Assembly (NCBI RefSeq): GCF_019599275.1
Contig: NZ_JAHZTD010000001.1
Coordinates: forward strand, 868,001 to 932,000
DNA length: 64,000 nt
Source of the DNA: Hymenobacter sp. HSC-4F20
Lineage (GTDB): Bacteria; Bacteroidota; Bacteroidia; Cytophagales; Hymenobacteraceae
Reading direction: 5' to 3'
In this document: positions 52,366 through 64,000 of the stretch, one piece after another
Layout: each line of letters opens with the position of its first letter
Numbering within the stretch: position 1 is the stretch's first letter
Program-made: the position numbers and the translations under genes
Notes under the pieces: model-generated
The model's database searches: none
What the model saw: the letters and a program-made list of their open reading frames with translations, nothing else
What the model was told of the DNA's origin: nothing

Positions 52366-53031
52366 ATGCGTCTGCAGCTATACCTCACAGCCAGCCAGGC
52401 TGTCCCATTCGACCACCTACCTACCCTGAAAGGCGCCTTCCACCGCTGGCTGGGCCACAACGACGACCTCCACGATGGCCTTTCGCTCTATTCCCTCTCC
52501 TGGCTGCGCGGCGGCCGGGGCAGCCGTGGCGGCCTCTGGTTCCGCGACGGCGCCCACTGGAGCATCTCCGCCCACGACCCGCAGCTGATTCACCAGCTCG
52601 TCGGCGGCATTATCCGGGTGCCAGAGCCGGGTCTGGGCCTGACCGTGCGCGACGCCCGCCTTATCACGCCGCCCGCCTTCCAGGATGGTGAGCAGTGGTT
52701 TCGGGTGCTCAGCCCTGTATTTGTGAAGTGGGAAACCCAGCCCGGCAAACCGGCCGATCATCTTACTTACCACGACCCGCGCACCGACGAGCTGTTGACC
52801 CAAACCCTGCGCCACAAGCTTCGCCAAGCCGGCCTCGATGATACCGGCGCCGCCGTCCGCTTTGACCGGGACTACCCCGGCGCGAAAAGCAAGCTGTTCC
52901 GGTACAAAGCCGTGCAGTGCCGCGCCAGCCAGTGCCCCGTCATCGTCACCGGCACCGCCGAGCAAATCCGGTTTGCCTGGTGCGTAGGAGTAGGCCACTC
53001 GACGGGGCTGGGATGCGGAGCGCTGGAGTAG
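52366..53031 (+). CDS. cas6: CRISPR-associated endoribonuclease Cas6
   Basis: A 221-aa Cas6, the RAMP nuclease that cuts the repeat RNA to make crRNA. It shows the N-terminal ferredoxin-like start 'MRLQLYLTAS', a Trp/Gly-rich strand and the C-terminal glycine-rich loop 'GVGHSTGLGCGALE' that marks Cas6. A conserved-looking His is present at about residue 28 (FHRWLGH), but the catalytic residue cannot be assigned with certainty. It is the first gene of the operon, 29 bp before cas5. Confidence 0.88.
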   Translation: MRLQLYLTASQAVPFDHLPTLKGAFHRWLGHNDDLHDGLSLYSLSWLRGGRGSRGGLWFRDGAHWSISAHDPQLIHQLVGGIIRVPEPGLGLTVRDARLITPPAFQDGEQWFRVLSPVFVKWETQPGKPADHLTYHDPRTDELLTQTLRHKLRQAGLDDTGAAVRFDRDYPGAKSKLFRYKAVQCRASQCPVIVTGTAEQIRFAWCVGVGHSTGLGCGALE

Positions 53032-53060
53032 ATTGTTACACGATTTATCAAGTTCGCACT

Positions 53061-53621
53061 ATGCTTTACGCAGTGAAGTACACCGGCCCGTTTGGCTACC
53101 TCAAGCCATGGACGGCCGTTCGGGACGGAGAAACCTATTCCCAGCAATTCTTAACTCCTTCAGTCATTGAAGGTATGCGCCAAAAGCTCGGCGTTTCTGC
53201 TATTCTCCGGCATAAGCTGACCTATACCGGGCTGAGTATGCAGCAGGAACAGACCCAACCCCGGGGCTGGATTCACGAGAAGAAAAAGCAGCAGATGACG
53301 CGCCCTCGCGCTATTCTAATGCGGGGAGTACTACTGGAGCCAGAACTGCACCTGGCCTTTGCCAGCGCGGAAGAAGCCGATTTGGCTGCCAGCCAGCATC
53401 TGTGCCTATGTCGCAACGAAGATATTGTCCTGCCCACCGAGCCCCTGATCTTAGATGAGGCCGATTTTAACGCCTTAGCCGGGTTCGAACTCCGCCCAGC
53501 AGACGCCTCCGAAACAGGGGCTTTTCTGGTAGGCTTCAACCGTTTCGCAGAAGGTGCTCCGATGCATGGACGGCTGGAAATTACCGGCAACCCTATTCGC
53601 CAGGTGGCCGCGGCGCTATGA
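53061..53621 (+). CDS. cas5: CRISPR-associated protein Cas5
   Basis: A compact 186-aa Cas5-type RAMP protein, which should hold the 5' handle of the crRNA in Cascade. The N-terminal RAMP strand 'MLYAVKYTGPFGYLKPWTAV' is followed by 'FLTPSVIEGMRQKL' (the usual Cas5 'pPs.ieGl..' position) and 'RPRAILMRGVLLEPELHLAF'. No better subunit fits. The ATG at 53061 is the first ATG that fits this start; its stop overlaps the cas3 ATG by 4 nt (ATGA). It is shorter than many Cas5 proteins (about 200-250 aa). Confidence 0.68.
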   Translation: MLYAVKYTGPFGYLKPWTAVRDGETYSQQFLTPSVIEGMRQKLGVSAILRHKLTYTGLSMQQEQTQPRGWIHEKKKQQMTRPRAILMRGVLLEPELHLAFASAEEADLAASQHLCLCRNEDIVLPTEPLILDEADFNALAGFELRPADASETGAFLVGFNRFAEGAPMHGRLEITGNPIRQVAAAL

Positions 53622-55765
53622 ATACCGACGATATCTTGGCCAAAAGTGCCAGCCACGGCGGCGAGCTTAGCCTTGAAGCCCACACCCGGCACGTTATGGA
53701 AGTGGCTACTGCCGTGGCGCGGGCTACCGGGCACGATGAGCGCCTGACGTTGCTCGGGGCCGCCCTGCATGACCTGGGCAAAGCACATCCTGCCTTTCAG
53801 AGTAAACTACGGGCACCTAAAACCACTCTGGCCGCAAACACGATTCTGCACCGGCACGAGTTATCGTCGCTGGGGTTTCTGCCGCTGGTAGCGCGGGCAG
53901 ACTGGCCGGCTGTAATCGATATGGTAGTGGCGCACCATAAGCCTATGCACCAGCCCAACGACCTGTTTGGTAAAGGCATCCTGGACCTAGAAGACCGAAG
54001 CCATACCTGGCAGCGGGACCATCTGGCTGGCTGGGATGACTGGGCACCCGGCGCGCTGGCTGTGCTGGCAAAGCTGGGTATTGCCACGCGCCCCATACCC
54101 AGGGCCGAAGCCGAAGCCGCGGTGCAGTTCGCGGTGCAGCACTGTGAGGCCAAGCGTAAAGGCTGGTCCGCATGGCGCGGGGTGCTGCAAGCAGCAGATC
54201 ATTTCGCCTCCGCACTTCAGCACGATGCGGCTGACCAGTTGGCAACCCTTTTTGCCACGCCCGATCTGTCCTTTTTCAATCGGTCGGCGCCTTTGTATCC
54301 CCTGTCTCTGGAGCGGGCCGATCAGCCTCAACAGCACACACTGGTAGTAGCTCCCACGGGTGCCGGCAAAACCGATTATCTGCTTCGCCGCTGCCGGGGG
54401 CGCGTATTCTATACGCTGCCCTTCCAAGCCTCTATTAACTCCATGTTTCGGCGGATGCTGGCGGCCAACACAGGTGGTCATGTACGGCTGCAACATGCTA
54501 TTTCACAGCTGGTAGAAGAGCGGGGCATAGTAGAAAAACAGCTCCAATCTTTGGTAGGGGCCTCGGTGAAGGTATTAACGCCGCATCAGTTGGCTGCTGT
54601 AGTATTCGGTACACCAGGCTATGAGGCGGTCATCCTGGATATACGCGGCGCGGATATTATTCTGGACGAGGTGCATACCTATGCAGCCCAGGCCCAATCG
54701 ATGGTGTTGGAAATTGTGGCTGCACTGGCCCGGCTGGGCTGCCGCATCCACATCGGGACGGCCACTATGCCCTCGGTGCTTTACCAAGAATTGCTGCGCC
54801 GGTTGGGTGGCCCGGATGCCGTGGCAGAAGTAGCCTTACCCCCTGAAACTCTCCGCCAGTTTGATCGGCACGCCGTGCATAAGATGGCTCGTAACCCCGA
54901 AAACCCGGCGGCCTGGCCTGAAGAGGCTGATGATATTCTGCAGGCGGCGCTGGATGCTGGGGAAAAGGTATTAGTCATCTGCAATACGGTGCAAGGCGCT
55001 CAGCAACGGTATAAGCAACTGCGTCACCAGTTTCCTGATGTTAAGCGGCTCTTGTTGCACAGCCGCTTCAAGCGCGGTGACCGGGCCGAGCGGGAACAGC
55101 GCCTCGAAAATGACTTTAATGACCCAAGAAATCCTGGCCCCTGCCTCGTGGTTTCCACGCAGGTAGTGGAAGTAAGTCTGGACATCAGCTTTGACCGGAT
55201 GATTACCGAAGCCGCGCCGCTGGACGCATTGGTGCAACGGTTTGGGCGCGTAAACCGCCGCCGTACTGCCGACACTATTGGTAAGCTTAAGCCAGTCCAT
55301 GTATTGGAACCCGCGCCTAGCTGCCTGCCCTACGACCGCGCCATCGTCGAAGCCAGCTTTGCCCAGCTGCCTGACCACGGCCACGTATTGCCGGAGCAAG
55401 AGTTGCAGGCTCGCATCGACGTAGTATACCCGACGTTGGAAGTGTCCAATATCAGTACCCACGTCATTTGGGACGGTGACCGGTGTACGCTGCGAGAATT
55501 GTGTAACAATGCCCGCTCGGTATTGGTGGACGTGCTGGACATTGAGTCGACGGCCTGCATTCTGGAAGCAGACCGGCAAGCCTACCTCGATGCTAAGTGG
55601 GAGGCGCGTACGATGCTGGAAATTCCGGTGAGCTGGCGCAGTATGTACGCCCATAAAACCAAGTATGAGCGGCTGGAAGTAGGCAATATGCCGTTCGTAG
55701 TGCCCGGCAATGAGGAATATGAAGAGCTAGGCCTCCAGTTCGAAGAGCACAATCCATTTCTATAA
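53618..55765 (+). CDS. cas3: CRISPR-associated helicase-nuclease Cas3
   Basis: A 715-aa Cas3 with both activities. The N-terminal HD nuclease domain has 'LGAALHDLGKAHPAF' (His51-Asp52), 'HRHELSSL' and 'VVAHHKP'. The SF2 helicase has Walker A 'APTGAGKT' (about 246-252), DEVH (about 350-353), 'GTATMP' and motif VI 'DALVQRFGRVNRR'. It degrades target DNA after Cascade binding. Placed between cas5 and cas8, it is coupled to cas5 by the ATGA overlap. The C-terminal part is of normal size and no frame break was seen. Confidence 0.96.
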   Translation: MNTDDILAKSASHGGELSLEAHTRHVMEVATAVARATGHDERLTLLGAALHDLGKAHPAFQSKLRAPKTTLAANTILHRHELSSLGFLPLVARADWPAVIDMVVAHHKPMHQPNDLFGKGILDLEDRSHTWQRDHLAGWDDWAPGALAVLAKLGIATRPIPRAEAEAAVQFAVQHCEAKRKGWSAWRGVLQAADHFASALQHDAADQLATLFATPDLSFFNRSAPLYPLSLERADQPQQHTLVVAPTGAGKTDYLLRRCRGRVFYTLPFQASINSMFRRMLAANTGGHVRLQHAISQLVEERGIVEKQLQSLVGASVKVLTPHQLAAVVFGTPGYEAVILDIRGADIILDEVHTYAAQAQSMVLEIVAALARLGCRIHIGTATMPSVLYQELLRRLGGPDAVAEVALPPETLRQFDRHAVHKMARNPENPAAWPEEADDILQAALDAGEKVLVICNTVQGAQQRYKQLRHQFPDVKRLLLHSRFKRGDRAEREQRLENDFNDPRNPGPCLVVSTQVVEVSLDISFDRMITEAAPLDALVQRFGRVNRRRTADTIGKLKPVHVLEPAPSCLPYDRAIVEASFAQLPDHGHVLPEQELQARIDVVYPTLEVSNISTHVIWDGDRCTLRELCNNARSVLVDVLDIESTACILEADRQAYLDAKWEARTMLEIPVSWRSMYAHKTKYERLEVGNMPFVVPGNEEYEELGLQFEEHNPFL

Positions 55766-55776
55766 TCCATTCAGCC

Positions 55777-57108
55777 ATGTATACCAGCTATATCGGCCGG
55801 CGGCTGCTCAGACTTTACCGGGAGCAAACCGGGGAAGAATTGTCAGCCCGACAGTTTTTCGAGCAGCAGCTCTACCCGCTTTTTTACGCACACAAACGCT
55901 ACCTGCAGTGGGTGCCCAGCTCACCCTTTGCGCAGAAAGTAGCGCAGGGCAACCTGGTAGCCGGCAAAACCGAAGCGGATATTCAGTTAGCTACTCTGCA
56001 CCACAAAATAGCCAATGTGGCTCCTGACGCCAGCTTTGTAATCGGGTTTCCGGCGGCTGGGGTGGAAGGCACTACGTCCGGGCAAGTATCGGGCGTAGGG
56101 CCCACGGTAGGCACCGAAGAAATTTACTGCTCCTGGATTGGCGGAGCCTTGGGTATCGGCGTCAGCGGTGGACTGTCGTTGCTGCTGGATGAAGATGACG
56201 TGTTATGGACGCTGTTTCAGGGCTGGGCGCACTACCGCACTTATCTGGAGCAACGTCCTAACATGAAAGGCAACCAAATTGACACTTGGAATGGCCATTG
56301 GCTTACTCATGCACTTAGCCCGCTATTTGAGGCTGCACACCCTTGGGACGGCTTCACTATTGAGCTAGCAGATACCAGCGGCACGCTTTCGATGCCGACG
56401 AAAGAATGGGTACAGGTAATTTTCTCTCTGGCGAGCCACTATAAGCGTAACCTGACGGCCTATGTATACAGCTTGGCTCAAACCAACCGCACCATTGGGT
56501 TTGTACCGCTGCATCTGGATGGAATAAATCGGGTGCGTGACTTAAACAGTAGGCTATTTCTGTTTCCGGAAGCCGTGCAAAGTGCGGGTATCGATGCGCT
56601 ATTACGGCTCTACGCCACTTATTACGGATTCGCTCGGGCCTGTCAGCTGGGAGCTATCGGCCTAGCAGCAATTGAGCCCGCCAAACTGCGCGAGTACGTA
56701 GGTGGTCCCGATTACGCTCCCAAGCCCCTTTCCGTCAAAACCGAAGAAGCCGCCATTCAATTTGCCTTTCAACAAATCTGGATACTTGCCATGCTCAACA
56801 ATCAGGAACTCTATACCGCCGCCGACCGATTAGCGGAGGCGCTGCAGCAGTACGCTGGTACAGCCACCCAAGGAAAAACCACGCTAGACCGCCAAGTGGA
56901 GAAGGTCTTCGTCAAGCATCGTCCTGCGTTTATCGAGCGTCTGACCGAAATTCTTGAAGAAGCCAAGAGCAGTGCGACGGAGTACGTGCCTGCTTTTGAT
57001 GAAGCAGTACGCCAGATTATGCTCATGCCTGTAGACAACTTCCCTTTGTTTGCCATTCTCACCCGGTTCCGCTACGTGGCCCGCCGAGCCGGCAGTGGCT
57101 CCAATTAG
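55777..57108 (+). CDS. cas8: probable Cas8 (large subunit of Cascade)
   Basis: A 443-aa protein with no family that I recognise from motifs. It is called Cas8 by position (between cas3 and cas7) and size. Features: 'QFFEQQLYPLFYAHKRYLQW' and 'WIGGALGIGVSGGLSLLLDEDD', a Trp/Tyr-rich middle ('WAHYRTYLEQRPNMKGNQI') and a helical C-terminus. Cas8 recognises the PAM and is the least conserved Cascade subunit. It starts 12 bp after cas3. Confidence 0.6.
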   Translation: MYTSYIGRRLLRLYREQTGEELSARQFFEQQLYPLFYAHKRYLQWVPSSPFAQKVAQGNLVAGKTEADIQLATLHHKIANVAPDASFVIGFPAAGVEGTTSGQVSGVGPTVGTEEIYCSWIGGALGIGVSGGLSLLLDEDDVLWTLFQGWAHYRTYLEQRPNMKGNQIDTWNGHWLTHALSPLFEAAHPWDGFTIELADTSGTLSMPTKEWVQVIFSLASHYKRNLTAYVYSLAQTNRTIGFVPLHLDGINRVRDLNSRLFLFPEAVQSAGIDALLRLYATYYGFARACQLGAIGLAAIEPAKLREYVGGPDYAPKPLSVKTEEAAIQFAFQQIWILAMLNNQELYTAADRLAEALQQYAGTATQGKTTLDRQVEKVFVKHRPAFIERLTEILEEAKSSATEYVPAFDEAVRQIMLMPVDNFPLFAILTRFRYVARRAGSGSN

Positions 57109-57136
57109 TTTTTAACTCATTCATTTCTCTTAACTA

Positions 57137-58216
57137 ATGAATCCTTACATCTACCTCCGGGGCCTGCGCCACGCCGAACACACCGTCTTTGCCGTGCAGG
57201 ACGGCCAGAAATATTATACGGATGCGCAGTTCGGTATCCGCCAAGCTTATTCCAGCGGGCAGCAAGTGAAGCGCAGCATTATGGATGCGCTGACTACTGG
57301 CCTCAACGTGCCGCCAGCTCCCATTACCTTCAACTGGCAAATCAAGAAGGGCAAAAACACAGAAGTACAGTTCGAGCAGAAAGAACCCTGGTCGCCCTGC
57401 GACCCAACCCATGTAGATCAGCTGTTAGGCGGCTATATGCGCGCTGAAACCGGGGAGTTTACGATCAAGCGCCGTAGCCCGCTCTCTATTTCGGCCATGC
57501 GCCCCCTGCATCCACTGCTCGGTGGCCTGGAAAGAGAGCGGGAGAATCTGACGTTTGACCGCACCTCGCATCCTACCCATCATCCAGTACGGGTACGCGA
57601 CGAAAAGGGCAACGAACTATCTCAAGACGATGTGGATACCTTGCTGCTCAATACCAAGCGTAACCTGCCCAACCGCATCTGGATTCCGGACCATAGCCGC
57701 GCGTCTGGTCTGTTTGTGTACGATGTATGTGTGGACCTGCGCACGTTGTTCTGTGTTTCCACCAACACACTGGAGCCCGAGTTGCACCCGTCAAAAACGC
57801 AGGAATTGAAGGATAAAGGCTGGACCGAAACGCGCAATGTGTTTGGCCCTTGTCTGCTGGCCCCCAAGGAACACCGCGAAAAGTACATCCCAGCCTTGGC
57901 CTATGCTCTTATCAACTGGCGCATTACCAGCAACCAGGCCCGCACCTTCAGCCTGATGGAAACACTGGCGCTGGCCGTAAGCGATAATGCGAATCATCTG
58001 GCCGGAGCTATTCGGGGACAACTGCGTGAGGACACGGAAAAGCCGACTGCGAAGCCTATATTGGACGAAACCGCCGGAGCTACGGTCTATATCGCGCTAC
58101 CGGCTGGCGGCTACATTGCCGGAGCTTATGGCGCTGCCGATGCCTTAGAGCGGGCCGAGCAGGATATTGCTCAGCGTCTGCGTGACTTTGACTATGAGAA
58201 TCAGATAGCCGGCTAA
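57137..58216 (+). CDS. cas7: probable Cas7 (backbone subunit of Cascade)
   Basis: A 359-aa RAMP-type protein called Cas7 by 'SGQQVKRSIMDAL' (about 37-49), a pattern close to the SGQQ.KR region of DevR/Cst2-like Cas7 proteins, by 'YLRGLRHAEHTVFAV' at the N-terminus and by its place next to the large subunit. It would polymerise along the spacer part of the crRNA. It is followed directly by a strong terminator (58215-58263) before cas4. Confidence 0.65.
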   Translation: MNPYIYLRGLRHAEHTVFAVQDGQKYYTDAQFGIRQAYSSGQQVKRSIMDALTTGLNVPPAPITFNWQIKKGKNTEVQFEQKEPWSPCDPTHVDQLLGGYMRAETGEFTIKRRSPLSISAMRPLHPLLGGLERERENLTFDRTSHPTHHPVRVRDEKGNELSQDDVDTLLLNTKRNLPNRIWIPDHSRASGLFVYDVCVDLRTLFCVSTNTLEPELHPSKTQELKDKGWTETRNVFGPCLLAPKEHREKYIPALAYALINWRITSNQARTFSLMETLALAVSDNANHLAGAIRGQLREDTEKPTAKPILDETAGATVYIALPAGGYIAGAYGAADALERAEQDIAQRLRDFDYENQIAG

Positions 58217-58263
58217 AACAGGACGGGCAGCCTTCAGCAATGAGGCTGCCCGTCCTGTTTTTA
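58215..58263 (+). terminator. intrinsic terminator inside the cas operon
   Basis: Perfect 19-bp arms (AAAACAGGACGGGCAGCCT and complement) with a 9-nt loop and a T5 run; the left arm starts inside the cas7 stop codon and the structure ends 18 bp before the cas4 ATG. It separates interference genes from adaptation genes. Confidence 0.9.
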
Positions 58264-58280
58264 ACTCATGCGCTAGCGTT

Positions 58281-58784
58281 ATGCACATCACCGGCAAGCA
58301 TATCAATTACTACCATATCTGCCACCGCAAGCTGTGGCTGTTTCACAATGGCATCAGCTTTCAGCACACGCACGCCAACGTGGCCGATGGTACGCTGCTA
58401 CACCAGACGGCGTATCCGCAACGGGCAGCCCGCTTCCGAGAAGTGCAGATTGCGGGCATTAAGATAGATTTCTATGATCCGCAGGACCGGGTAATCCACG
58501 AAATTAAGCGTTCCGATAAGTTAGAGCACGCCAGCGTCGCGCAGCTGCACTACTACCTCTATGTGCTGGAGCGGCACGGGATAGAAGGGCCTACCGGCGT
58601 TCTGGAATATCCAAAGAGCCGCCAGACGCACGCGGTAACGCTCACGGACGTCGAGCGGGCCGCCATTCCGGAGTGGGAATCTGCTATTGAGCTTATCGTC
58701 ACTAAACCCGAGTGCCCACCTGTCATTAACAAACCTCTCTGCAGGCAATGTAGCTATTATGAGTTCTGCTACGTGGGCGAGTAA
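58281..58784 (+). CDS. cas4: CRISPR-associated exonuclease Cas4
   Basis: A 167-aa Cas4, a RecB-type nuclease with a 4Fe-4S cluster that trims prespacers and checks the PAM. Iron-sulfur ligands are Cys14 (ICHRKLWL) and the C-terminal Cys154, Cys157 and Cys163 (CRQCSYYEFC). Nuclease residues are probably His41, Asp63, Glu74 and Lys76 ('HEIKRS') and Gln88 (QLHYYLY). It is a complete short Cas4, not fused to cas1. Confidence 0.93.
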   Translation: MHITGKHINYYHICHRKLWLFHNGISFQHTHANVADGTLLHQTAYPQRAARFREVQIAGIKIDFYDPQDRVIHEIKRSDKLEHASVAQLHYYLYVLERHGIEGPTGVLEYPKSRQTHAVTLTDVERAAIPEWESAIELIVTKPECPPVINKPLCRQCSYYEFCYVGE

Positions 58785-58862
58785 AGCAGACGCGACGTTG
58801 ATGTAATCGAACTAGCGGTTTAACCTACCAAGCCCGATAAGTATTTCTAAGCCCAAAATCTC

Positions 58863-59870
58863 ATGCGAAAGACCTATTACTTATTCAACCCTGGCCGGCT
58901 GGCCCGCAAGGATAATACGCTGCAATACACTGCCTATGATGAGCAGGGGCTGCCAGGGCAGGTGAAATACCTGCCGGTGGAAGACGTATCCGACCTGTAT
59001 GTGTTCGGTTCGCTCGATGCGAACTCATCACTCTATAACTTTCTGGGGAAGAGCGGCATTTCGGTGCACTTTTTCGATTACTACGAGCACTACACCGGCT
59101 CGTTTATGGCTAAAGAGTATCTGCTGGCGGGCAAGCTGCAGGTGCAGCAGACCCAACACTACACCTCCAAAGCCAAGCGCATTACCCTGGCCCGCAAGTT
59201 TGTGGAAGGCTCGGCGTTCAATCTGCTCAAGAACCTGCGCTATTACCAGGGCCGTGGCCGGGAGGTAGGGCAGGAGATAGGCCAGATTGAAGGCTACGTA
59301 GCGGCGCTGCCCTTCGCCACGGCCGTGGATGAGCTGATGGGCCTGGAAGGCAACATCCGCCAGACCTACTACGGCGCCTTTGACCGTCTCGTGCCCACCG
59401 ATTACGCCTTCGGGACCCGCACCACCCAACCCCCACAAAACGAGCTGAATGCGCTCATGTCGTTTGGCAACATGCTCTGCTATTCGGCCTGCCTCTCGCA
59501 GATTTATCATACCCAGCTCAACCCCACCATCAGCTTTCTGCACGAGCCCGGCACCCGCCGTTTCTCCTTGGCCTTGGACCTGGCCGAAATCTTTAAACCC
59601 CTGTTGGTGGACCGCCTAATTTTTCGGGTGCTCAATAAGAAGGAAATTCAACCAAAGGATTTTATGCAGGATTTAGGTCGCTGCGTGCTCAAGGAAGCAG
59701 GTAGGAAAACGGTGGTACGCGTGTTTGAGGAGCGCTTGAAGGAAACGATTCAGCACCGCAGCCTCAAGCGTAGCGTCAGCTACCAGCACCTGATCAAGCT
59801 TGAATGCTACAAGCTGACCAAACACCTGATGCAGATGGAGGAATACAAACCCTTTAAAGCTTGGTGGTAA
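58863..59870 (+). CDS. cas1: CRISPR-associated integrase Cas1
   Basis: A 335-aa Cas1, the spacer integrase. The catalytic residues are Glu162 ('LEGNIRQTYY'), His227 ('FLHEPGTRRFSL') and Glu242 ('LAEIFKP'). The N-terminus 'RKTYYLFNPGRLARKDNTL' is typical of I-B-like Cas1. It follows cas4 after 78 bp and ends one base before cas2. Confidence 0.97.
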   Translation: MRKTYYLFNPGRLARKDNTLQYTAYDEQGLPGQVKYLPVEDVSDLYVFGSLDANSSLYNFLGKSGISVHFFDYYEHYTGSFMAKEYLLAGKLQVQQTQHYTSKAKRITLARKFVEGSAFNLLKNLRYYQGRGREVGQEIGQIEGYVAALPFATAVDELMGLEGNIRQTYYGAFDRLVPTDYAFGTRTTQPPQNELNALMSFGNMLCYSACLSQIYHTQLNPTISFLHEPGTRRFSLALDLAEIFKPLLVDRLIFRVLNKKEIQPKDFMQDLGRCVLKEAGRKTVVRVFEERLKETIQHRSLKRSVSYQHLIKLECYKLTKHLMQMEEYKPFKAWW

Positions 59871-59871
59871 G

Positions 59872-60135
59872 ATGTACGTACTATTGGTGTATGATATTCG
59901 GGAGAAGCGGGTAGGTAAGATGCTTAAGCTCTGCCGCCGCTACCTGAACTGGATTCAGAATTCAGTTTTCGAAGGCGAGATTTCGGAGGTTAAGCTAAAA
60001 GAGTTGCTCGCCAAAGCGCATGACTTCCTGGATACTGATGAGGACAGCGTGTTAATCTTTAAGAGCCGTAGCCAGCAGTGGCTGGAGAAACAGGTAGTGG
60101 GTCAGGAGCGTAATCGTCTGGATACCTTTCTGTGA
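59872..60135 (+). CDS. cas2: CRISPR-associated protein Cas2
   Basis: An 87-aa Cas2 with the ferredoxin-like start 'MYVLLVYDIREKRVGKML' (Asp8) and 'NSVFEGEISEVKLKEL'. It forms the scaffold of the Cas1-Cas2 integration complex. It lies directly upstream of the CRISPR leader. Confidence 0.95.
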   Translation: MYVLLVYDIREKRVGKMLKLCRRYLNWIQNSVFEGEISEVKLKELLAKAHDFLDTDEDSVLIFKSRSQQWLEKQVVGQERNRLDTFL

Positions 60136-60331
60136 AGACGTGCCGTCGTCGGTCAGGTAGCATGTCCTGTGGGTTGGGTGCTTATAGAGTCTGTTAAAAA
60201 GCTAACTGCCTGACCGTCAAAGGTCGTCGCTGCCCCAGTAAAATCCTGGTATTGCCATTCGACGACTTTTCTATGCAAGATTACTGGCAAAAGTGTAGCT
60301 TCAGGCTTCAGTAGCGGCCTTTTCGTGACGA
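60136..60331 (+). promoter_or_regulatory. CRISPR leader
   Basis: 196 bp between cas2 and the first repeat. It should hold the array promoter and the integration site. It has an inverted repeat CGGTCAGG / CCTGACCG (60150-60157 and 60209-60216) and an AT-rich part around 60185-60205. No promoter match is convincing. Confidence 0.75.
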
Positions 60332-63300
60332 CCTTCAATCGGACTGTGTGGAATTGAAATGCGAACATTCTGCTGCGGGCCTTTTCGGATGGTGACACCT
60401 TCAATCGGACTGTGTGGAATTGAAATGACCATGCCTGGCGTATACAACCCGGCCACCTTCCGCCTTCAATCGGACTGTGTGGAATTGAAATTTTCGTACT
60501 AGTTGGCTCTGCAAACCTAAGACAGCACCTTCAATCGGACTGTGTGGAATTGAAATTAATTTCCATTTGCAGCGCAAAATGTTGCCTAAAAACCCTTCAA
60601 TCGGACTGTGTGGAATTGAAATAGCCCAAAAGGAGCAGATTCTGAGCCTGCTCAATAACCTTCAATCGGACTGTGTGGAATTGAAATCGTAATACTCAGC
60701 GGGGGCCAACACGACAACACTATCCTTCAATCGGACTGTGTGGAATTGAAATTTCATTGGCGGCAAAAAATCTACCTCTCGCTATAAGCCTTCAATCGGA
60801 CTGTGTGGAATTGAAATGAGTATGCCCGAACGATTCTCAACAACCTGAACCCCCTTCAATCGGACTGTGTGGAATTGAAATCCGCCTGGCGTGGTCGTGC
60901 ATTGCAGCAACGCGCTGCCTTCAATCGGACTGTGTGGAATTGAAATCATCTACCGTAATCGCTATAGTGGCGACCAGCGGCCCCCTTCAATCGGACTGTG
61001 TGGAATTGAAATGGCGGGGGCGTGAGTCTCCAAGGCTTCGGGGCCGTGCCTTCAATCGGACTGTGTGGAATTGAAATACAGCTACGTGCAGCCCTCGCGG
61101 CCGCAAAACAGCACCCTTCAATCGGACTGTGTGGAATTGAAATAGGTAATGCGCACGTCGGGCTCGGCAGGAATAAAGCCCTTCAATCGGACTGTGTGGA
61201 ATTGAAATAGGGAGTAGGCTGCCCGCTCGTCGGTGGGCAGGCGGCCTTCAATCGGACTGTGTGGAATTGAAATTTGTTAGTTGCTCGGTTCCTCTCCCTG
61301 CTGAATCAGACCTTCAATCGGACTGTGTGGAATTGAAATCTGCTCCCCGGCCAGCAGCAGGGAGTTGTTCAATAGTCCTTCAATCGGACTGTGTGGAATT
61401 GAAATTACGCTGGAAGAAGCGTTGGCTGCTCAGGCCCCGGCCTTCAATCGGACTGTGTGGAATTGAAATGTTTACCAGGTAGCGAATGAATAGTTGCCCA
61501 TCCTTCAATCGGACTGTGTGGAATTGAAATGTAAGAGGGAAAGAACAACCTATAGGGAAGCAGTAACCTTCAATCGGACTGTGTGGAATTGAAATGCCGA
61601 CCTATTTCAGCGGTCCGACCAGGTAAGCCGTCCTTCAATCGGACTGTGTGGAATTGAAATTAGAAGAAAGCTGGCACCCGGACTTGTTCGACGAGCCTTC
61701 AATCGGACTGTGTGGAATTGAAATAGCTCACGGAGTAGGTGCGGTTGCTGTTCACCCGGCCTTCAATCGGACTGTGTGGAATTGAAATTACGAGCACCTG
61801 AGCCAGGGGACCCACGGCCTCCTGCCTTCAATCGGACTGTGTGGAATTGAAATAGCGCCTCCTCGCCGATGCGGGCTAGCAGATATTCCCCCTTCAATCG
61901 GACTGTGTGGAATTGAAATTTCAGGGCGGTGTCGTTTGCACACCTGGTTGGTGGACCTTCAATCGGACTGTGTGGAATTGAAATTAAAATCTATGTCAAA
62001 CTATTTTCCAAAATAGAGCCCTTCAATCGGACTGTGTGGAATTGAAATGTTTGTATCTATCCACACGGTGATGTGCCCGTAAACCTTCAATCGGACTGTG
62101 TGGAATTGAAATTGGGATAAAGATCATATCTATGGCGTAATCCGGCAAGCCTTCAATCGGACTGTGTGGAATTGAAATACGTTCACGTCGCGCAGGTAGA
62201 GTTGAGAGCGGCCCGCCTTCAATCGGACTGTGTGGAATTGAAATACGGTGGCCTTGTTCCTGTCCAGCTCCACGGCCGCGCCTTCAATCGGACTGTGTGG
62301 AATTGAAATGGTTGAGCTGCTCAATATCACTGCGATACTTCACCTCCCTTCAATCGGACTGTGTGGAATTGAAATCCGGCTTCGAGGGGACGGTGCTGCA
62401 CGAGGGCAAAGCCTTCAATCGGACTGTGTGGAATTGAAATCACTGCTGAACGGGCAAGGCAGCCTGCATACCACGGTCCTTCAATCGGACTGTGTGGAAT
62501 TGAAATTCTATGAGCAGGCTGAGTTGTCCCCGAAGCAGCACTCCTTCAATCGGACTGTGTGGAATTGAAATGTCGGGCCGCTGGAGCAGCGCGCGGAACG
62601 GGTATTCCCTTCAATCGGACTGTGTGGAATTGAAATAGCCCTACGAAATTGAGTTGGTACCCAGCGTCACCGACCTTCAATCGGACTGTGTGGAATTGAA
62701 ATTGAAGGAGGAGTTGATTGCCCGTGGCTACCAAGCATCCTTCAATCGGACTGTGTGGAATTGAAATGGTATCCTTAGCGGCCGGGGGCGACTTGTCCGT
62801 GCCCTTCAATCGGACTGTGTGGAATTGAAATTCGTCCGTGTTCCTGTATGAGCCGGTAACTATTTCCCTTCAATCGGACTGTGTGGAATTGAAATAGCTT
62901 AGCGAAAGCGATTTCCGCGTCACCCATGAGGGCCTTCAATCGGACTGTGTGGAATTGAAATGGTAGCCGTGGATAATACCATGCTTGCAGCCGAAGCCCT
63001 TCAATCGGACTGTGTGGAATTGAAATTCCGCTAGCCGCTTCGGAACGACCACCGCGATTAGACCTTCAATCGGACTGTGTGGAATTGAAATGAAATAAGC
63101 ACCAGCAGCAACAGCGCCAGCAATAACCCTTCAATCGGACTGTGTGGAATTGAAATAAACATACGAAAAATTCCGAATGCAGTTGCACCAGGCCTTCAAT
63201 CGGACTGTGTGGAATTGAAATCCCTTCCGCCGTTTGAGTGAGGTAGGTGACAAGGGCCTTCAATCGGACTGTGTGGAATTGAAATAGGTGCTCCGGTTTC

Positions 63301-64000
63301 TCAAAAAACACCCGTGCCGACCTTCAATCGGACTGTGTGGAATTGAAATCGTTCTGCCCTGTGCCGCTGGTAATGGGCTTATTCTCCTTCAATCGGACTG
63401 TGTGGAATTGAAATAGCACCTGCTTTTCCCGGCGCACGAACGAGGTGATGCCTTCAATCGGACTGTGTGGAATTGAAATAGCGGGCCGGCGACTACCACA
63501 CCGACCTGAAGGTGACCTTCAATCGGACTGTGTGGAATTGAAATAATCAGGAAGATTTTCTGATTGGGATCGGCCATCAGCCTTCAATCGGACTGTGTGG
63601 AATTGAAATCAGCTTCACTTCCGAAACAATAGAAGCAAATTCCTCCTTCAATCGGACTGTGTGGAATTGAAATTTGGCCACCAACTCGTTTACGACCAAC
63701 GTAAACACGTCCTTCAATCGGACTGTGTGGAATTGAAATGCGCTCGAAGCGCTGGATAATGATGCTGCCGAACGCCTTCAATCGGACTGTGTGGAATTGA
63801 AATAGGGCTACTTTGCGGTTGGCAATGGCCGAGGCCGCCCTTCAATCGGACTGTGTGGAATTGAAATAATCAGCTCTACTATTGTCACATCCTGAATCCA
63901 GCACCTTCAATCGGACTGTGTGGAATTGAAATGTAGCTCCAGATATGGTCACGTACTTCTGCTGCTGCCTTCAATCGGACTGTGTGGAATTGAAATGCGG
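60332..64000 (+). CRISPR. CRISPR array, at least 57 repeats, open at the right edge
   Basis: 57 copies of a 29-nt repeat that begins CCTTCAATCGG and ends GGAATTGAAAT, with 56 complete spacers, mostly 35-37 nt (one of 32 nt at 61470-61501), giving a 61-66-nt period. All repeats appear identical by eye, including the most leader-distal seen. The leader is to the left, so the oldest spacers lie beyond the right edge. The 3' part ATTGAAAT would be the 8-nt 5' handle of the crRNA after Cas6 cutting, as in type I-B and III systems. The last repeat starts at 63968 and the sequence ends 4 nt into the next spacer. Confidence 0.99.

Follow-up and report, generated by a model that had tools for sequence, protein, structure and literature searches.

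A type I-B CRISPR-Cas operon with lineage-typical gene order in Hymenobacter sp. HSC-4F20

An operon of eight cas genes in the genome of Hymenobacter sp. HSC-4F20, in which cas5 and cas3 stand ahead of cas8 and cas7, raises the question of whether such an order marks an undescribed type I CRISPR-Cas variant, a recent reshuffling of the canonical I-B order or the normal arrangement of a lineage of its own. The operon lies in a window of 64,000 nucleotides, the whole stretch of DNA analysed here, and an initial annotation made from the letters alone had read it as either a diverged I-B lineage or an undescribed variant. The first of these readings stands and the second does not: the locus is a new member of a known Bacteroidota type I-B lineage, its gene order is normal for that lineage, and we hold with high confidence that it is best explained as a Cas8b6-type I-B system of Bacteroidota residing in a Hymenobacter genome.

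Eight genes and their families

All eight open reading frames lie on the + strand between positions 52366 and 60135, in the annotated order cas6-cas5-cas3-cas8-cas7-cas4-cas1-cas2, and are followed by a leader and by an array that runs beyond the window end; every other feature of the locus described below is on the same strand. PADLOC models match each of the eight genes, including Cas4b, Cas1b and Cas2b. The first gene, cas6 (52366..53031), encodes a Cas6b endoribonuclease of 221 residues (PDLC02101, 2.6e-83) that is also matched above cut-off by Pfam PF01881 (2.7e-8), with an NCBIfam score slightly below that model's cut-off. It is followed by cas5 (53061..53621), which encodes a Cas5b of 186 residues (PDLC02093, 1.1e-82; PDLC01480 CAS-I-B, 2.3e-75) and whose end at 53621, with cas3 starting at 53618, confirms the ATGA overlap reported for this pair. 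The product of cas3 (53618..55765) is an HD nuclease-helicase of 715 residues (PADLOC Cas3b PDLC02079, 1.9e-298), in which TIGR01587, TIGR01596 and PF22590 all score above cut-off and supply the HD nuclease and helicase domains that define type I. Read directly, its translation contains LHDLGK, GAGKT and LDEVH, which we take to be motifs supporting the same identity.

The large subunit gene cas8 (55777..57108, 443 residues) is matched over residues 1-435 by the Cas8b CAS-I-B effector_LS model PDLC01511 (1.7e-128), and the gene for the Cas7b backbone, cas7 (57137..58216, 359 residues), by the CAS-I-B effector_G7 model PDLC01493 (1.6e-162). The operon ends with cas4 (58281..58784, 167 residues; PF01930, 2.5e-48, and TIGR00372 above cut-off), an I-B-type cas1 (58863..59870, 335 residues; TIGR03641 Cas1b, 443.8 bits against a cut-off of 304.1), beside which the host genome has no further Cas1 match, and cas2 (59872..60135, 87 residues; PF09827, 3.2e-22).

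Cas5 had been called short, yet its 186 residues are normal for the family, which spans 181-210 residues in 33 loci and is modelled in PADLOC at lengths of 177-178. Nor are the effector subunits assigned mostly by context, as had been stated: Cas5, Cas7 and Cas8 each have a strong direct match to a PADLOC I-B model, and these models cover them almost end to end. The reliance on context can be traced to other collections, since Pfam offered no fitting model for cas5, cas8 or cas7, NCBIfam none for cas5 or cas8, and the two DevR-type NCBIfam matches of cas7 both fall below their cut-offs (among them the DevR family TIGR01875, at 1.5e-6).

Subtype I-B is indicated by the matches to the Cas8b, Cas5b, Cas6b and Cas7b profiles (PDLC01511, PDLC02093, PDLC02101 and PDLC01493, respectively) together with the I-B-type Cas1 (TIGR03641). 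PDLC01511 is matched by 13 of the 13 members of our Cas8 alignment (A1), the window protein included. That this is a diverged I-B is borne out by hhalign, which detected no profile-profile similarity between the Cas8 family and TM1802-type Cas8b (probability 0.1%). Type I-B1 (for example, in Thermotoga maritima; PMC13199841) has the same kinds of subunit, and its small subunit is expected inside cas8, but it is defined by a TM1802-homologous Cas8 and by cas8 before cas3; with that homology undetected and cas3 coming first, the locus is not filed as I-B1.

The lack of similarity to TM1802-type Cas8b would also favour an undescribed type I variant or a new subtype, as would the missing Pfam models and the profile searches against solved chains, in which none convincingly matched the profiles or alignments of Cas8, Cas5 or Cas7. 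We nevertheless consider this very improbable, and 'undescribed' can be rejected: the PADLOC I-B models span Cas5, Cas7 and Cas8 nearly fully, Cas8b is itself reported to be non-monophyletic and is split into the variants Cas8b1-Cas8b15 (PMC13199841), and the arrangement has been in print since 2017 for Bacteroides fragilis (PMC5704556). High-scoring matches to I-B families and a common, named order are the very findings that the initial annotation had set against its own proposal of novelty.

In the accessible text of the 2017 paper (PMC5704556), the B. fragilis neighbourhood consists of cas6, a hypothetical gene (cas5), cas3, two hypotheticals, cas4a, cas1, cas2 and the array. The system is called type I-B there, with cas7 and cas8b6 named as the remaining genes; cas5, cas7 and cas8b6 are credited to the classification of Makarova et al. 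2015, their sequences are described as very divergent, and the order is said to depart from that of the canonical I-B of Clostridium kluyveri. The B. fragilis repeats are 29 nt long, with spacers averaging 37 nt. Our locus resembles this system in its gene order, in the position of the array after cas2 and in its 29-nt repeats; it differs in host and in array, and the Cas proteins were compared through a proxy, a Bacteroides pyogenes relative (L038) with the same gene order, whose Cas8 aligned at 32% identity (E 3e-74). With the label passed on through this proxy, and the matched PADLOC model bearing no variant number, the large subunit probably belongs to the Cas8b6 group. Among the papers searched, the name cas8b6 occurred in one, and none combined Hymenobacter, CRISPR and type I-B or gave the gene order as a joined string. 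The locus itself adds little, as its arrangement is the rule in the lineage and already published; what is left of interest is the little-studied biochemistry of the lineage and a self-targeted prophage, described below.

Structural models were also compared. The AF2 model of Cas5 has a pLDDT of 79, and the first eight rows of its fold search (VIA) are CRISPR entries, the best being 4qyz_J (Z 7.5, rmsd 4.0, 150 aligned); because RNA-binding RRM-type folds follow close behind and no row reaches Z 8, the fold supports, without proving, the identity of Cas5. The Cas8 model is moderate (pLDDT 64), and its VIA matches are all below Z 8, level with unrelated helical proteins. A full-length match to 8dfs_I, which belongs to a type I-C Cascade (Z 5.7, rmsd 9.2, 287 aligned), was set aside as too loose.

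Gene order across the Bacteroidota

The initial annotation had proposed a search for the same order in other Bacteroidota. With profiles built from the locus proteins, cas6-cas5-cas3-cas8-cas7 was found on one strand in all 31 relatives that have the five effector genes, and the order is kept down to about 30% Cas8 identity. Outside these 31, four loci cut by contig ends agree as far as they are readable, and two more (L065 and L066) are fragments. The adaptation genes run cas4-cas1-cas2 in 25 of the 31 and cas1-cas2-cas4 in one; one locus has cas1 only, and four have no adaptation gene within the stretch examined. A contig search yielded 12 named loci, all of them from Bacteroidota (Hymenobacter, Cyclobacterium, Runella, Flectobacillus, Bacteroides pyogenes and MAGs). 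Counting the own genome, Cas7 occurs in 23 of 395 genomes sampled across the phylum, two of these with fragments only (L029/L030), and Cas8 in six of 99 relatives.

As a control, TM1802-type Cas8b (PF09484) was found in seven of 296 genomes of a phylum sample. PF09484 (Cas_TM1802) also matches in Thermotoga maritima, and on this ground we take the TM1802-type loci to represent the I-B1 group. In all five of the Bacteroidota loci of this type examined with their flanks, cas8 comes before cas3, and their Cas8 profiles do not align with the window family. The two counts, 31 of 31 against five of five, indicate that two I-B lineages with different gene orders coexist in the phylum and that the order seen here is typical of its own. 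Had a canonical I-B operon been rearranged recently in this Hymenobacter strain, an order unlike that of TM1802-type loci would follow, but this reading is refuted by the 31 complete relatives across the phylum that share the order, and we give it next to no probability.

Nine of the 31 complete loci (L036, L039, L040, L041, L048, L049, L055, L061 and L068) have a second, weaker Cas6-like open reading frame upstream of the operon. Some copies in relatives are decaying: cas3 is split in L040 and in L043, where about 2.4 kb lie between the parts, cas1 is split in L040 and cas7 in L068, and fragments alone are left in L065 and L066.

A candidate internal small subunit and a hairpin after cas7

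The gaps among the eight genes are all shorter than 80 bases, too short to hold a separate cas11. Sequence signals point to a candidate Cas11b small subunit of 105 residues inside cas8 (56791..57108), which would start at Met339 of Cas8. Internal translation of Cas11b has been described for other I-B systems (PMC11899642; PMC11096372). In that of Haloferax volcanii, which is archaeal and is likened to ours by description, Cas11b is started at an internal cas8b methionine (PMC11899642). In that of Synechocystis sp. PCC 6714, Cas11b likewise comes from inside cas8b and joins Cas8b, Cas7b, Cas5b and Cas6b in Cascade (PMC11096372); the Synechocystis system differs in its Cas8b3 and its PAM, AYG (PMC13199841), whereas the flanks here suggest CC.

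In an alignment of 34 cas8 genes, from which L042 and L068 had been removed beforehand, codon 339 is ATG in every gene, and 95-134 codons remain after it. Just upstream there is a synonymous excess of AT3 relative to each gene's own codon use: the eight-codon window ranks third of 434, none of 300 synonymous shuffles reaches it, and the same holds in 21 sequences of less than 60% identity. Met339 might be merely structural, with the C-terminal bundle of Cas8 never made as a separate Cas11b. Indeed, the residue lies within a conserved stretch (W335, M339 and N341 are invariant in 13 of 13 sequences), and the signal weakens when the 12 GC-rich cas8 genes are taken alone, the same window then ranking 18th of 435, or 37th when widened to ten or fifteen codons. 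Against this reading stand the universal ATG and the local synonymous excess over all genes, the latter left unexplained by constraint on the amino acids, and the same device is reported for the haloarchaeal and cyanobacterial I-B systems cited above (PMC11899642; PMC11096372). We therefore regard a purely structural Met339 as unlikely, and internal translation of Cas11b from this codon as likely. In the AF2 model the C-terminal part of Cas8 is helical, and its matches to Cse2 (2zca_B; Z 5.9, rmsd 3.4, 81 aligned) and to an I-C Cascade (7kha_I; Z 5.4, rmsd 3.5, 89 aligned) are level with those to unrelated helical proteins.

Reading and folding of the sequence directly after cas7 gave a hairpin (58215..58261) with an MFE of -38.7 kcal/mol, a z of -9.7 and a 3' arm ending in UUUUU, which we tentatively interpret as an intrinsic terminator parting the effector from the adaptation genes. 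Generic scans for promoters and terminators in the operon stayed at chance level, and this hairpin is absent from the scan list. In eight of eight further loci from Hymenobacter, the 55-nt fold that scores best within 140 bases begins 0-6 nt after cas7; these folds, of unrelated sequence, have raw folding energies of -23 to -41 kcal/mol, and four U follow the stem in only two of the eight. At the same position in other genera the folds are mixed.

Arrays, spacer targets and a self-targeted prophage

A leader of 196 bases (60136..60331) lies between cas2 and the first repeat; neither it nor the array that follows was mentioned in the initial annotation. The array occupies 60332..64000 in the window and continues to the equivalent of 68023; counted over the window plus the adjoining sequence (L067), it has 119 repeats of 29 nt, all identical, and 118 spacers, which are 32-38 nt long and in 63 cases 36 nt. 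The repeat ends in ATTGAAAT, which we take to be a 5' tag of the sort that type I crRNAs should carry, and the array is accordingly read in the direction of the operon.

The arrays of the relatives carry related repeats. Matches to spacers of the main array and of its relatives lie in other Hymenobacter genomes, many of the weaker rows being near chance. Nine proteins at or near such matches were scanned, of which five match PHROG families (portal, tape measure twice, methyltransferase or ParB, and methyltransferase or unknown) and four match none. The window portion of the array, roughly spacers 1-56 of the 118, had no match in the phage collection; its sole plasmid match, to a Hymenobacter record, was discarded as apparently a further array (64.9% identity, 17 places).

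For the PAM, we pooled 1415 distinct spacers and compared them with 226 kb of matched loci, the related spacers coming from 26 of 44 arrays detected, several of the others being second copies of the same array. The count was limited to matches that had up to 6 mismatches and lay more than 12 bases away from a locus end, and 19 spacers qualified. These 19 are not fully independent, in that several spacers fall on the same phage gene and the loci were chosen by spacer match; their 5' flanks have C at -2 in 13 cases (p 0.0006 at C = 0.3 and 0.003 at 0.35) and C or T at -1 in 15. The flank is CC in all three matches that are perfect or have a single mismatch. The main-array spacers alone give a weak signal, with C at -2 in 7 of 12 at up to 7 mismatches (p 0.039 at C = 0.3). 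In the accessible text of PMC13199841, PAMs are tabulated for Cas8b1, 2 and 3 only, and the Cas8b with a full PAM profile are all said to recognise a pyrimidine at -2. Together with the flank counts, this makes 5'-CC a plausible PAM.

Presuming, as we infer, that the operon is expressed and active, it would follow the established pathway of type I systems. Cas4-Cas1-Cas2 would insert spacers at the leader end, and Cas6 would process the array transcript to crRNAs bearing a AUUGAAAU 5' tag. Cascade, composed of Cas8, Cas7, Cas5, Cas6 and the internally translated Cas11b, would check the PAM (probably 5'-CC) and open the target DNA, after which Cas3 would be recruited and the target DNA degraded.

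Perfect matches to two spacers, 71 and 80, lie on contig C20 of the host itself, at 286207-286242 and 291937-291972, and both matches have a CCC 5' flank. They are surrounded by genes for a portal, a head protease, an endolysin, a tape measure protein, a methyltransferase, a repressor and an integrase, from which we recognise a prophage at roughly C20:283-322 kb (L145, L146 and L148). An active system would be expected to attack this prophage, whose presence would make sense if there were an inhibitor or if the system were silent. We identified no anti-CRISPR (inhibitor) gene. On the strength of the two matches, interference may be inhibited or silent. A system that looks intact yet is non-functional or silenced would fit the two perfect, CCC-flanked matches and would have parallels in the broken copies of some relatives (cas3 split in L040 and L043, only fragments left in L065 and L066), but none of the eight reading frames is interrupted and the 119 repeats do not differ from one another, and we consider it quite unlikely. 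A further reading, possible though less likely than not, is that the lineage has a biochemically uncharacterised Cascade that uses a 5'-CC PAM and includes a Cas11b started inside cas8, and that the host lives with the prophage because the latter carries an anti-CRISPR against this I-B variant.

A second array lies on the same contig as the main one, about 1 Mb from the cas genes (C9:1965882-1966875; L147). It consists of 16 exact copies of the repeat followed by a degenerate one, and its 15 spacers have none in common with the main array. Upstream of it, comparison by eye shows blocks in common with the main leader.
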